Source: an uncultured Hyphomicrobiaceae bacterium
Lineage (GTDB): Bacteria; Pseudomonadota; Alphaproteobacteria; Rhizobiales; CALHAX01
Length of the DNA stretch: 33,640 nt
Assembly: GCA_937931785.1 (NCBI GenBank)
Contig: CALHAX010000094.1
Coordinates: forward strand, 1-33,640
Direction of reading: 5' to 3'
In this document: piece by piece, positions 1,924 to 13,212 of the stretch
Numbering within the stretch: the first letter of the stretch is position 1
Layout of the letters: the number at the start of each line of letters is the position of its first letter
Translations under genes and position numbers: made by a program
Notes under the pieces: model-generated
Database searches by the model: none
The model's input: the letters and a program-made list of their open reading frames with translations, nothing else
What the model was told of the DNA's origin: nothing

Positions 1924-2760
1924 TCAACGGAATGAGAATGGGATTGAGAACCGGAGCTGGTGAGCCGAAGCCCCAACCGGTGGACGGGGAAAGGGCGATG
2001 CCCGGCGTACGGCTGCAAGTGCTGCGCGGTCGAGGGTCGCATTGCCGCTTCCACGGCGAACGGTAGCGTAGCGTAATCCACCTGATTGTGTGATCGCAAA
2101 TGAAACAACGACACGCCCGCGGCCTGTCGCACTGGGACGCCTTGACAGGATACGAGCGCGAACACGTGACGCATACCCTTGAATTGATCCTGCGCTTGCT
2201 TTTCCTTTACCGCCACCTTCTCCGCGTGTTGTTCCAGCAGAGTTCTTTTTCCTGCTTCCTGCACGGCTTTTTTTCGATTTTTTTTCTCTACGCTTGGCCG
2301 ACCGACCTTTAAACGTCTTTTTCAACTTGAGTTGTTTTTTCTCGATTGCAACGGGTTTAATTTCCTCTATGGATTTTGCATCGACCGTTTGAACGGATGT
2401 AATTGCCTCTTGCGTTTCCGATAGAGCTTCAATTGCCGAGCTGGATGTAACCGCCGATGCCGCCTGGGTTTCGCCAAACGCTCTGTTACCTTCCGTTGGG
2501 TGGGTTTGGACGGCTTCAACCGCTGTATGGGTGGGCTCGGTTTCTTTTGTTTTTACCGGTTTCGCGGAGTCATGTTCTGCGACTTCTGCGATTGTTGCTC
2601 CGCCAAGAACGCGCGCCAGGCTACCGGATACAGTGACGGTTGCGCCGGATGGTTTTTCCAACGCACCATGCTTTTGTGGTTCCAGGCCGATGAGAAGTGC
2701 AACATGGATGGCTATGGCGCACGAGAGTGCAACGATCCATCCGAGAACACTGTGCCTCAT
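1924..2760 (-). CDS. tonB: TonB-family energy transducer
   Basis: This 278-residue protein carries energy from the inner-membrane ExbB-ExbD motor to outer-membrane receptors. Residues 7-26 are a single N-terminal membrane anchor that keeps a Ser (S13) and a His (H19), like the S-x-H face of TonB. A long periplasmic stretch follows, first acidic (65-140), then very basic with RSAKRREKKSKKSRAGSRKK near 153-172. Residues about 195-278 form the TonB C-terminal fold (GYASRVRARILSRRP, then the VVVSFAI strand and a PFPRPP loop). Its ATGA start overlaps the stop of the preceding exbD by four bases, indicating translational coupling. It is the last gene of the five-gene operon. The Lys/Arg-rich rather than Pro-rich spacer is unlike E. 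coli TonB. A TolA-like role is possible but less likely, because a separate tolA lies at 13222. Confidence 0.85.
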   Translation of the reverse strand: MRHSVLGWIVALSCAIAIHVALLIGLEPQKHGALEKPSGATVTVSGSLARVLGGATIAEVAEHDSAKPVKTKETEPTHTAVEAVQTHPTEGNRAFGETQAASAVTSSSAIEALSETQEAITSVQTVDAKSIEEIKPVAIEKKQLKLKKTFKGRSAKRREKKSKKSRAGSRKKNSAGTTRGEGGGKGKASAGSIQGYASRVRARILSRRPSATGRGRVVVSFAITQSGGLRYATVRRGSGNATLDRAALAAVRRASPFPRPPVGASAHQLRFSIPFSFR

Positions 2761-3167
2761 GGTTTTCGTACTCTTTCAGACATCACCGCAACCGTGTAAT
2801 GCCCTGCTGACTTGAGCTTGCGCGTGATCGCCATAAGTGTACGGGCATTGAGCCGAGCGTCCGCGACGATGATAAATGGTTGCCTGGAGAACGGGTCCGT
2901 TGGAGGCACAACAACGTCAATTAAATCGTCCAGAACTACCGTAGCGCCACGATATGTGAGTGTTCCGTTCGCATGGGCAACCAGATGTCCTGGTGCAACG
3001 GTGCTTCCCACGTCAGGTGCGATCTTTGTCAGTTCGATATCACGTGCAGAAAATGGGCGTAGTGCACCCGCAACAATGAAGAAGATGAGGATTAGGAAGA
3101 CGACGTTGATCAAGCCGGTCAGATCAACTTCTTTGCGCGAAGTCGGAGTGGTCTTCCTCAAGCGCAT
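2757..3167 (-). CDS. exbD2: ExbD/TolR-family protein with Asn in place of the key Asp
   Basis: This 136-residue protein has a short cytoplasmic tail, one membrane helix (residues about 16-38) and a periplasmic domain, as in ExbD. In ExbD and TolR the helix begins with an invariant Asp (IDVVFLL or VDVMLVL) that binds the translocated proton. Here the motif reads LINVVFLIL, so residue 21 is Asn (codon AAC on the minus strand). The rest of the helix, including the FF pair, is typical. A strong AAGGAGGT ribosome site precedes the ATG. It follows a normal exbD by about 40 bp and overlaps tonB by four. The Asn suggests that this subunit cannot carry protons alone and pairs with the first ExbD; that is inference. 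Confidence 0.85.
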   Translation of the reverse strand: MRLRKTTPTSRKEVDLTGLINVVFLILIFFIVAGALRPFSARDIELTKIAPDVGSTVAPGHLVAHANGTLTYRGATVVLDDLIDVVVPPTDPFSRQPFIIVADARLNARTLMAITRKLKSAGHYTVAVMSERVRKP

Positions 3168-3185
3168 GATTTTACCTCCTTAACG

Positions 3186-3227
3186 AACGACGCGTATGAT
3201 TTTTGACGTCAATCAACGACGCGTATG
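3186..3227 (-). repeat. 13-bp direct repeat across the exbD1 stop
   Basis: AACGACGCGTATG occurs at 3186-3198 and again at 3215-3227 (plus-strand reading). The second copy covers the last codons of the first exbD, and the first lies just past its stop, before the ribosome site of the next gene. This looks like a small local duplication of the gene end. Confidence 0.6.
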
Positions 3228-3622
3228 CTGGTGAATTGGCTCCGGCGCACCGGGATCAATGCAGAAACAAGATCGGCAACGCTTGTGCCTGGCATCGCCA
3301 CAACGACGGCTTGTGCGGCCCCCTTATCGATCAAGTTATCCAGTACTGTCGTGAGTGTTCCTGGCTCTATATTCAGCCCATTCACACGAAGAGCACCCTG
3401 GACACCGACATGCACAAGAACAGTCCTGGTTAGATCGACTGGCTTGTCGTTGATGCCAGCGCCCGTTGTATCAATCGTCACTGTGCCGAATTTCAAGAAC
3501 GTCGAGGACAGCATGAAAAACACGAGGAGGAGGAACACAACGTCGATGAGTGACGTCAGGCTGATGACGCGTCTGCGTGATGATGAATTATTCAGCCGCA
3601 TCGGGGGCAAGCCGGGTAACAT
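3209..3622 (-). CDS. exbD1: ExbD-family proton channel protein (canonical)
   Basis: The protein has the ExbD plan: a basic cytoplasmic tail, one membrane helix with the conserved motif SLIDVVFLLLVFFML and a periplasmic domain of about 90 residues. The proton-binding Asp is present (residue 27 from the first ATG, 20 from the second). The ATG at 3622 overlaps exbB by 35 bp. A start at 3601 (MRLNNSSS) would shorten this to a 14-bp overlap and gives a more usual ExbD length of 130; the choice is open. It forms the motor with ExbB and is followed by a second ExbD that lacks the Asp. Confidence 0.88.
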   Translation of the reverse strand: MLPGLPPMRLNNSSSRRRVISLTSLIDVVFLLLVFFMLSSTFLKFGTVTIDTTGAGINDKPVDLTRTVLVHVGVQGALRVNGLNIEPGTLTTVLDNLIDKGAAQAVVVAMPGTSVADLVSALIPVRRSQFTSIRVVD

Positions 3623-4373
3623 TGTCCAACAGTGCCGTGCTCGACGGTGGCGTTGGTCGCGCCTTGAGCCGCTCGGTAAACAAACTGGTCAGACTGGATT
3701 CGATTAAAGTGGTTTCGCGTTCGATGCGACCTTCGAACCAGTAGAGTGAGAACGCCGTTGGGATTGCGACAGCCAGACCGACAGCCGTTGTAATCAGTGC
3801 AACCCAGATACCGCCGGCGAGAACCGCAGGATCCGCGTTCGCACCGGAGGTTTGCAAGGCTTGAAACGCAGTCATCATCCCAATCACTGTGCCGAACAAG
3901 CCGAGCAGTGGTGCGATCTGCGAAATGGATTCAAGAACGCGGAGATAAGCCTTTGCGTCAGCAAGGAGTGTGAGCGCCACCCGTTCCGCATCCTCACGAA
4001 TTCGAGATTCTTCGATACCGTTTTCCATGCCGGACATAGCATGACGAAGGATAATGGCTGTTGGGTTCCAGGCGCGCGACAATGCTTTGATCGCCTCTTC
4101 ACGTTGTCCGGTAAACCAGGCGGCAAGTGCGTGTTCGGTTCGTCGTGTGCTGCCAATACCCTGTACCAGAAACTGGAAACTTTTGAGTAGGATTACAGTA
4201 AGCGCAACGACAGACATAACTGCAAGAATAGTCACGATCGGGCCACCGCGTTCAATCAGATCAGTTGCAGCACTCAGGTCGATTCTCAACGTTGAGAGCC
4301 AACCAGAAGCTGTGGCACTGGCTGCAAGGGAATCAAGTTCTGGCGTCACGACATTAGACAGATCGTCTTCCAT
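3588..4373 (-). CDS. exbB: ExbB / MotA-TolQ-ExbB proton channel
   Basis: This 261-residue inner-membrane protein has three helices, at about 45-66, 152-172 and 187-211. The second holds the family signature LGLFGTVIGMMTAF with conserved Thr162, and the third holds ITTAVGLAVAIP with Thr195/196. These Thr residues line the proton path in ExbB and TolQ. The large cytoplasmic part lies between helices 1 and 2. An AGGAGA ribosome site precedes the ATG. It is transcribed after a small periplasmic protein gene and before two exbD genes and tonB, so it powers TonB rather than Tol. The N-terminal 40 residues, before helix 1, are longer than in TolQ and carry no clear signal peptide. Confidence 0.9.
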   Translation of the reverse strand: MEDDLSNVVTPELDSLAASATASGWLSTLRIDLSAATDLIERGGPIVTILAVMSVVALTVILLKSFQFLVQGIGSTRRTEHALAAWFTGQREEAIKALSRAWNPTAIILRHAMSGMENGIEESRIREDAERVALTLLADAKAYLRVLESISQIAPLLGLFGTVIGMMTAFQALQTSGANADPAVLAGGIWVALITTAVGLAVAIPTAFSLYWFEGRIERETTLIESSLTSLFTERLKARPTPPSSTALLDNVTRLAPDAAE

Positions 4374-4382
4374 TGCGATCTC

Positions 4383-4805
4383 CTAAACGATAAACGGAAT
4401 TTCCATCCGGGATGATGGCGTCGTTGCCGCGAGACATGTCTCAGGAGTCAGGTCGTCACCGCGACACCGCGTGATGTCGTTCAGCAGAACACGACCAACG
4501 CTTGTACAGTCGAGATCTTTGAGATCGAACTGTTTGACCCGTGATTTTCCGAGTGGCAATTTTCCAGTTGATACCGTCACCAATTTGACGACGCGTTGAT
4601 CCTTGCCAAACAGAACGAGTTCGAACGCGAGGTCATCCAGGGCAACAGCCAACTCGTTTTTGATGAGAAATGTCGTCCGACATGCTGTTCCGGCGGGTGT
4701 CATGTTGTTCAACTCGATAGAAAGCCGAACCTTGTCCTGTGCCATTATCACCGATGGCGCCGTGATCAGGATCAGCGCAACACAGATTGTTTGGATCAAA
4801 CGCAC
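4383..4805 (-). CDS. Exported protein of unknown function, first main gene of the exb operon
   Basis: This 140-residue protein has a clean signal peptide (LIQTICVALILITAPSVIMAQ, cleavage after about residue 22). The mature part looks all-beta: alternating strands, a stretch TPAGTACRTTFLIKNEL, and four Cys that could form two disulfides. I do not recognise a named family; the strand pattern resembles a small immunoglobulin-like periplasmic domain. The start is a GTG at 4805 with AAGGA seven bases upstream. Its stop is 9 bp from exbB, so it is co-transcribed with the TonB motor. It may be an accessory of the energy-transduction complex. Function is unknown. Confidence 0.7.
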   Translation of the reverse strand: MRLIQTICVALILITAPSVIMAQDKVRLSIELNNMTPAGTACRTTFLIKNELAVALDDLAFELVLFGKDQRVVKLVTVSTGKLPLGKSRVKQFDLKDLDCTSVGRVLLNDITRCRGDDLTPETCLAATTPSSRMEIPFIV

Positions 4806-11916: not shown

Positions 11917-12021
11917 TGCATACGAACAGATCGATTCTCTGAAAGCCTCATGACCGCAGCAAAGCTGGTGATGTGGTATGCGGGATCGCATCATCGCAGC
12001 TGCAGTTAGGGACATCACTTC

Positions 12022-12756
12022 ATGCAAAGCGGCATCTTGTTACTCGCACAGGCGGTTGACGTTTCATCTATCGGTGCGACCGGCGGCGAGGGTGTGTCTG
12101 TGGTAGCGCTGTTCCTGCAGGCTCATATTGTTGTGAAAGTCGTCATGGTTGGTTTGCTGTTTGCATCGATCTGGTCATGGGCGGTGATTGTCGAGAAGAT
12201 CTTCACGTTCCGGAGCGCACGCAAGGCGACGGACCGGTTTGAGCAGATGTTCTGGTCGGGCCAATCGCTTGAAGAGCTCTATTCCGCAATGGCGCACCAG
12301 AAGACGCAAGCCATGTCGACGATGTTTGTTGCGGCGATGCGCGAGTGGAAACGAACCGTCGAGGGAAGCCCGAAGTCTTTTCGCGGCATTCAACTCCGCG
12401 TTGAGAAGGTCATGGACGTGACCATCAACCGGGAAATGGATCGGCTTGAGCGCCGACTGCTGTTCCTCGCATCCGTTGGTTCAACTGCGCCGTTCATCGG
12501 ATTGTTCGGCACGGTGTGGGGCATCATGACAAGCTTCCAGGCGATCGCGATTTCAAAGAACTCGAGCCTTGCGGTTGTTGCGCCCGGTATTGCAGAAGCA
12601 CTTTTTGCTACCGCGCTGGGCCTGCTCGCCGCCATTCCTTCCGTGCTGTTCTACAACAAGTTCAACAACGACTCGCAACGTCTCTCACAACGTCTGGAGA
12701 GCTTTGCCGATGAATTCGCCTCTATCATTTCCCGCCAAGTGGATGTGAGAACATGA
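12022..12756 (+). CDS. tolQ: TolQ, proton channel of the Tol-Pal system
   Basis: This 244-residue inner-membrane protein has three helices, at about 35-57, 150-175 and 184-211. The motifs APFIGLFGTVWGIMTSFQ (156-173) and ALFATALGLLAAIPSVLFYN are diagnostic of TolQ/ExbB, and the following tolR-tolA-tolB fixes the name. With TolR it forms the motor that energises TolA to constrict the outer membrane at division and recycle Pal. The N-terminus (MQSGILLLAQAVDVSS) is short and periplasmic. The ribosome site is weak. It is the first gene of the tol operon; no ybgC precedes it. Confidence 0.95.
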   Translation: MQSGILLLAQAVDVSSIGATGGEGVSVVALFLQAHIVVKVVMVGLLFASIWSWAVIVEKIFTFRSARKATDRFEQMFWSGQSLEELYSAMAHQKTQAMSTMFVAAMREWKRTVEGSPKSFRGIQLRVEKVMDVTINREMDRLERRLLFLASVGSTAPFIGLFGTVWGIMTSFQAIAISKNSSLAVVAPGIAEALFATALGLLAAIPSVLFYNKFNNDSQRLSQRLESFADEFASIISRQVDVRT

Positions 12757-12771
12757 TGGGGGACCGTCGCC

Positions 12772-13212
12772 ATGGGCGCTAGTCTGGGAGGCGGAGGAAA
12801 CCGCCGTCGGGGATCGCGGCGCATTCAGCGTGAGGCGATGAGCGATATCAATGTCACACCCTTCGTGGATGTGATGCTTGTGCTGCTCGTCATCTTCATG
12901 GTGACGGCGCCGCTGCTGACATCCGGCGTGCCGCTGGATCTGCCGAAAACAAAGTCGCAGCAACTCTCCACAGACAAGGAACCGTTGACGGTGTCGGTCA
13001 ACAATAAAGGAGAGATTTTTCTGCAGGATACAAAAATCACGCTCGAAGATGTCGGGGTCAAACTCAAGGCGATCAACAAGGGCGGACCGGACGAAACGAT
13101 CTTCGTGCGCGGCGATACCAAGATCGATTATGGTCTGGTGATCAAGGTGATGTCACGGATCAACGCAGCCGGTTTCAGCAAGGTCTCTCTGCTTACAAAT
13201 GGCGAGGGGTAG
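12772..13212 (+). CDS. tolR: TolR, proton channel partner of TolQ
   Basis: This 146-residue protein starts with a Gly/Arg-rich cytoplasmic tail (MGASLGGGGNRRRGSRR). One helix follows, opening with the family motif DINVTPFVDVMLVLLVIFMV, and then a periplasmic domain. The proton-binding Asp is residue 33 and is intact, in contrast to the second ExbD at 2757. The domain ends with the TolR strand-helix IKVMSRINAAGFSKVSLLT. A GGGGGA site precedes the ATG, 15 bp after tolQ. TolQ and TolR form the stator and rotor of the Tol motor. Confidence 0.95.
   Translation: MGASLGGGGNRRRGSRRIQREAMSDINVTPFVDVMLVLLVIFMVTAPLLTSGVPLDLPKTKSQQLSTDKEPLTVSVNNKGEIFLQDTKITLEDVGVKLKAINKGGPDETIFVRGDTKIDYGLVIKVMSRINAAGFSKVSLLTNGEG

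Follow-up and report, generated by a model that had tools for sequence, protein, structure and literature searches.

The best described relatives of the locus reported here are the ExbB5-ExbD2 complexes of Escherichia coli and Serratia marcescens, which act with TonB and contain two identical ExbD chains, each with a transmembrane Asp. The ExbB pentamer surrounds the two ExbD helices, the two Asp25 residues lie in different environments, and this Asp has been called strictly conserved (PMC9008036). One TonB D-box, asymmetric, is held between the two ExbD domains (PMC10907165), and in E. coli ExbD D25N by itself is inactive (PMC11658791). In models of ExbBD, TolQR and MotAB, two identical Asp residues alternate between two pentamer sites (for example PMC9008036, PMC9389320); the two-site rotary versions proceed in 36-degree steps, with one ion per step and ten per turn (PMC9389320).

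Duplicated exbD genes are also on record. The hmu heme cluster of Ruegeria sp. TM1040 includes exbB, exbD1, a second copy of exbD, tonB and a gene for a hypothetical protein; the genome has one receptor, and growth on heme fell strongly when the gene for that receptor was disrupted (Hogle et al., 2017; PMC5225302). Stenotrophomonas maltophilia has tonB1-exbB1-exbD1a-exbD1b, an exbB followed by two exbD genes, and this set is linked to hemin uptake (PMC11002078). The AglR-AglQ-AglS gliding motor of Myxococcus, a different system, likewise combines one MotA/TolQ-like with two MotB-like proteins; the parts of the Agl literature consulted discuss a heterodimer as an open question, report the AglQ proton site as essential and report no Asn in AglS (PMC9389320, PMC9120999). 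It is thus already known that exbD is duplicated in Roseobacter heme clusters and that it occurs in tandem elsewhere, but as far as the text of these reports was available there is no earlier mention of an Asn in place of the proton-binding Asp. A wider look at the open-licence literature found no direct report of an Asn ExbD, of a heterodimeric or one-site ExbD pair, or of MotB D32N mixing; an earlier report may exist elsewhere.

How does the present locus compare? Along the minus strand of the window (the whole 33,640-nucleotide stretch of DNA that was analysed) the order of transcription is a secreted protein gene (positions 4383 to 4805, an open reading frame of 140 amino acids with a signal peptide), exbB (3588 to 4373, PF01618), exbD1 (3209 to 3622), exbD2 (2757 to 3167) and tonB (1924 to 2760; PF13103/PF03544, TIGR01352). 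A first-pass annotation had read LIDVVF in the first ExbD and LINVVF in the second, and both open reading frames bear this out: ExbD1 has the motif in the context VISLTSLIDVVFLLLVFFML, with the Asp codon GAC at 3544-3542, and ExbD2 has it in the context EVDLTGLINVVFLILIFFIV, where the codon at 3107-3105, the position of Asp25 in E. coli ExbD numbering, is AAC. The Asn is therefore no reading slip, as had been maintained. The strong ribosome site and the coupling to tonB that had been claimed for exbD2 were found as well, the former as AAGGAGG at 3181-3175, 7 bases 5' of the ATG, the latter as an ATGA (2760-2757) in which the tonB start overlaps the exbD2 stop. Spanning the end of exbD1 and the gap before exbD2 (3187-3233), ATACGCGTCGTT occurs twice, about 35 bases apart, a pattern that resembles a partial duplication of the exbD1 tail.

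Both ExbD proteins belong to the PF02472 family, with 42.5 bits for exbD1 and 34.4 bits for exbD2, above the Pfam cut-off of 25.4. Both fall outside the E. coli-like ExbD equivalog, the NCBIfam model TIGR02803 (ExbD_1), scoring 16.0 (exbD1) and 19.5 bits (exbD2) against a cut-off of 152.95. The AlphaFold model of ExbD2 (pLDDT 84) consists of a single transmembrane helix and an alpha/beta periplasmic domain; the ExbD2 profile matched ExbD chains in the PDB (best E 3e-19), and Foldseek matched the model to the ExbD structures 8PEK, 8VGC and 8P9R (E 1e-5 to 2e-4), with a TM-score of about 0.8 by target length against 8VGC, 8VGD and 8P9R. ExbD1 retains the transmembrane Asp and Thr21 of a functional ExbD (LTSLIDVVF), and ExbD2 lacks the Asp25 of a proton-carrying one. 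ExbD2 is thus an ExbD homologue by sequence and by fold, and is filed as an Asp-less partner paralogue and not as a functional ExbD alone. The likeness to the E. coli and S. marcescens complexes extends to the Pfam domains of all three proteins, the transmembrane helix sequence, the periplasmic ExbD fold and a TonB-dependent receptor in the genome; the differences are that two paralogues, one of them with Asn, replace two identical chains, and that ExbB usually is without its pore Glu.

One TonB-dependent receptor is encoded in the genome, together with two ExbB/TolQ genes and three ExbD/TolR genes (tolR and the exbD1/exbD2 pair). Apart from the Ton cluster, the ExbB/ExbD family is represented solely by tolQ and tolR (12010 to 13209, plus strand, as stop-to-stop frames), which lie outside the Ton system and serve as an internal control: TolR keeps the Asp (FVDVMLVLL) and TolQ the Glu (GIAEAL). 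The exbB-exbD1-exbD2 set is hence the only Ton motor of this genome. The same ExbD/TolR set is present in one genome with 10 TonB-dependent receptors (G337) and in another with eight (G369). With exbB and tonB linked and a receptor in the genome, exbB-exbD1-exbD2-tonB is, judged from its genes, a real Ton motor.

The Asn is a property of a conserved gene family and not a peculiarity of one genome. Among 171 distinct tandem ExbD pairs from all loci, 159 are Asp-Asn and 12 Asp-Asp, and the orders Asn-Asp and Asn-Asn do not occur. Ten of the 12 Asp-Asp pairs are from other ExbD subfamilies, so that within the window's own family ExbD2 has Asn in 159 of 161 pairs. Many of these loci were found with motifs that contain the Asn, and such counts are biased; loci fetched without an Asn motif, including those from a full-length protein search of 100 relatives, provide the unbiased ones, and here ExbD2 of the window's family has 32 Asn versus two Asp. 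The recurrence of Asn, in 159 of 171 pairs and in 32 of 34 family pairs fetched without it, is beyond chance. The motif-free search returned PLIN[IV]VFLxLIFF in the second ExbD of nearly every exbB-exbD-exbD-tonB cluster. ExbD2 sequences are very divergent (about 20-40 % identity) and yet share the Asn, and in 152 Asp-Asn pairs it is encoded 98 times by AAC and 54 times by AAT; since both codons are used, the amino acid has been held while the codon varied. Tyr takes this position in one fragment of the Asn family, which is cut off by a contig end (L026).

A family-profile scan of 84,980 species genomes gave at least 391 encoding loci, and the 80 that were retained are, where named, from Rhodobacterales, Hyphomicrobiales and other Alphaproteobacteria. 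When the motif was searched phylum-wide and in two additional orders, the same clusters came up beyond the window's class; in one such order 34 of 54 genomes have the motif, and clusters were confirmed in a sample of those 34. The scan and these searches are among those that relied on Asn-containing motifs. The expectation in the first-pass annotation that Asn would be conserved in the second ExbD of related clusters thus holds for the Alphaproteobacteria as well as for two orders of a second proteobacterial class, and the Asn proteins form one clade. Hundreds of species break the ‘strictly conserved’ Asp, some of them with this set as their sole Ton motor. Relatives with Asp in the second ExbD, which the annotation had named as evidence against its reading, do occur, in two lineages of about 160 (L009/G024 and L165/G157); these two lineages mean that the Asn is not absolutely required. 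In both (L009/L156 in G024 and L165 in G157) Thr21 of ExbD2 is still lost, and they are natural controls for a two-site version of the motor.

Motifs outside position 25 are distributed between the two proteins in a reciprocal manner. In an alignment of Asp-Asn pairs to E. coli ExbD numbering (152 ExbD1 and 151 ExbD2 sequences), ExbD1 has Thr21 in 150 and Asp25 in all 152 sequences, and Asp107 in just 20; ExbD2 has Thr21 in four and Asp25 in none, and keeps Asp107 in 150 and Gly126 in 143 of 151. The single ExbD and TolR proteins sampled mostly have all of these: Thr21 in 11 of 12, Asp25 in 12 of 12 (the Tyr fragment L026 set aside), Asp107 in 13 of 14 and Tyr112 in 11 of 14. Gly126, which single ExbDs retain, is absent from ExbD1. 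Tyr112, on which the interface of the ExbD homodimer is described as being centred (PMC10771500), is lost in both members of the Asp-Asn pairs, and adjoining it a new Gln113 is nearly fixed in ExbD1 alone (144 of 152), making it a candidate heterodimer contact. Apart from the residues noted, the transmembrane helices of the two proteins are alike. As a result of the reciprocal loss (Thr21 and Asp25 on one chain, Asp107 on the other), neither chain alone has the canonical residue set. Together with the altered homodimer interface this is the pattern expected of obligate partners, and it forms the main new argument for a putative heterodimer.

The motor has also changed at another conserved carboxylate. 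The window ExbB has Val (GGIWVALITTAVGL) instead of the conserved pore Glu, Glu176 of E. coli ExbB. Among 156 ExbB proteins of the GIW type from Asp-Asn clusters, 109 have Val and 33 Glu, the rest having Q, L, T, K, G or A; TolQ and the ExbB partners of single ExbDs retain Glu, and ExbB of the Asp-Asn clusters keeps GLFGTV and the TTA threonines. A strict coupling between the Asn and loss of the ExbB Glu had seemed plausible with Val in 101 of 109 ExbB/TolQ rows, but was weakened by the wider sample, in which 33 keep Glu. To judge from these counts, the ExbB Glu is under relaxed constraint and is not strictly tied to the Asn of ExbD2.

How did the pair originate? In a tree of 199 ExbD sequences (114 columns, made by a quick method, with deep forks poorly resolved), ExbD2 proteins are gathered in a single group (91 rows, SH-aLRT 95), opposite a group made up of their ExbD1 partners (91 rows). 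Asp-Asp tandems of other subfamilies are placed outside both groups; those sampled (L159-L164, L168, L172 and L173) have Asp in both proteins and lie far from the window's family. The Asp-bearing ExbD2 of L009 is best read as a reversion, as it is nested within the Asn clade. The simplest history suggested by the tree would be one ancient exbD duplication and one Asp-to-Asn change, retained since.

Sequences and their conservation, gene order, the reciprocal residue loss and the presence of a single Ton motor in the genome are consistent with an obligate ExbD1-ExbD2 pair that acts as a heterodimer in the ExbB pentamer, has one proton site and powers TonB-dependent import; we give this reading a probability of about 0.7. 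From these observations we infer the physical heterodimer, its one active proton site, its stoichiometry and, for the window's own system, the cargo. Taken by itself the heterodimer is quite likely, and given a heterodimer, function with a single site is highly probable. After duplication of a single exbD, the two products would have become an obligate pair occupying both ExbD places. ExbD1 would be the sole proton-carrying helix, taking up and releasing protons, and ExbD2 a permanently neutral, passive partner helix. In the periplasm the roles would be reversed, ExbD2 having kept the canonical residues, and both domains would jointly hold TonB. There would be one proton site per axle rather than two: in a rotary 5:2 scheme, about five protons and 72-degree steps per turn versus ten protons and 36-degree steps; in a single-stroke scheme, one proton per stroke, always delivered by a fixed chain.

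Among rotary motors there is a precedent in principle, the V-type ATPase proteolipids, where duplication followed by loss of one carboxylate led to fewer ions per turn; these proteins are unrelated to ExbD, and the analogy is one of principle only. We give even odds to a Ton motor, widespread in nature, in which the heterodimer is fixed and each axle has exactly one site for proton binding. It would have half as many proton sites as all other characterised 5:2 motors, the gear having been changed through subfunctionalisation of a subunit, and force generation would not require two alternating carboxylates. A conserved motor with Asp on one chain and Asn on the other is a direct test of alternation models, as a single proton site has to suffice for its stepping, rotation or pulling. 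ExbD2, if fixed in place, could also offer TonB one defined side to bind, and, with the two chains in a fixed orientation towards TonB, structures of the Ton complex could be freed from the two-fold ambiguity that now complicates them.

Could the two proteins work apart? ExbD1 homodimers might be the active motors, while ExbD2 sits apart in complexes that are inactive or mixed and serves as a brake or a reserve, tuning motor activity or binding TonB when idle. An ExbD2 without a proton site would suit such a role, and the equal gene dose of exbD1 and exbD2 makes mixtures possible, but ExbD1 is unlike a complete stand-alone ExbD, having lost Asp107, Gly126 and Tyr112, which single ExbDs keep. 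Several genomes have no other Ton ExbD, an Asn-ExbD was never seen without an adjacent Asp-ExbD at loci where the upstream side is covered, and a gene serving purely as a brake should have disappeared more frequently, all of which makes this explanation unlikely. Side chains of ExbB and TolQ take part in the proton paths of these motors, and the second proton might accordingly be carried by another acidic residue of ExbB, ExbD2 or TonB, leaving the motor two-site. This is more doubtful still: most Asp-Asn clusters have lost the ExbB pore Glu, the ExbD2 helix has gained no conserved acidic residue, and the acidic residue that precedes this helix (E/D in the columns of E. coli 17/18) is expected to be cytoplasmic.

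The Asn could instead be part of a changed binding site, with coupling to another ion or a conformational cycle independent of the proton motive force. Cation binding by Asn is conceivable, and the Asn chain has lost Thr21 too, but the canonical proton motif (T21, D25) is present in ExbD1 of nearly all pairs and the GLFGTV and TTA threonines are retained in ExbB, so that we consider this very improbable. Least credible is the view that the Asn reflects decay or neutral change of a redundant paralogue; nothing speaks for it beyond the loss of Asp itself. The annotation had argued against decay from the ribosome site and the tonB overlap; to these are added the periplasmic Asp107, kept in 150 of 151 ExbD2 proteins, and an Asn held over long branches at such low identity while AAC and AAT exchange freely. 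Conservation, codon exchange and the tree together rule out decay of exbD2.

The obligate one-site pair would power import through TonB-dependent receptors, and in Roseobacter relatives heme would be among the cargoes. A TonB-dependent receptor and hemS lie beside the Ton cluster in Tritonibacter and Epibacterium, and relatives in these genera and in Ruegeria have the Asp-Asn pair, most of them with the same secreted protein. The Roseobacter hmu cluster shares with the window's family exbB, exbD1, the duplicate exbD, tonB and the hypothetical protein; the available text of PMC5225302 describes the duplicate and does not mention an Asn, but by comparison with Ruegeria relatives the TM1040 duplicate presumably carries one. 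The tandem of S. maltophilia, compared here by its published description, resembles these clusters in its exbB-exbD-exbD order and its heme link. No receptor gene adjoins the Ton cluster in the window. The only TonB-dependent receptor of the genome lies on another contig (L217, G000:C92:12000-26000), where its neighbours are a RoxA-like cytochrome c gene, a LuxR-type regulator and a sulfite/nitrite reductase; no heme genes were found near it in that scanned stretch.

The secreted protein (4383 to 4805), the first gene product of the cluster, matched no Pfam or NCBIfam family. Its gene adjoins exbB in most cluster loci, and four Cys are invariant in the family alignment. AlphaFold predicts a beta-sandwich (pLDDT 92), for which the best PDB match, a weak one, is E. 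coli IrmA. It may represent an unrecognised periplasmic part of the Ton system, and probably corresponds to the product listed as ‘hypothetical protein’ in the heme operon of Ruegeria.

Two further groups of loci were noted. L223 (G613) and L224 (G611) encode ExbD-like proteins with altered motifs, LTSLMDIFTILLFF and IVSMIDVFAVLVFF, beside ExbB and TonB; they represent a different, Asp-keeping subfamily. A very divergent second cluster (L119, L120, L147 and L227) keeps the Asp-then-Asn order, with LTPLADAMFQLLIFF in ExbD1 and LAIVNIVLLLIFF in ExbD2, and its ExbB has Thr at the Glu site.
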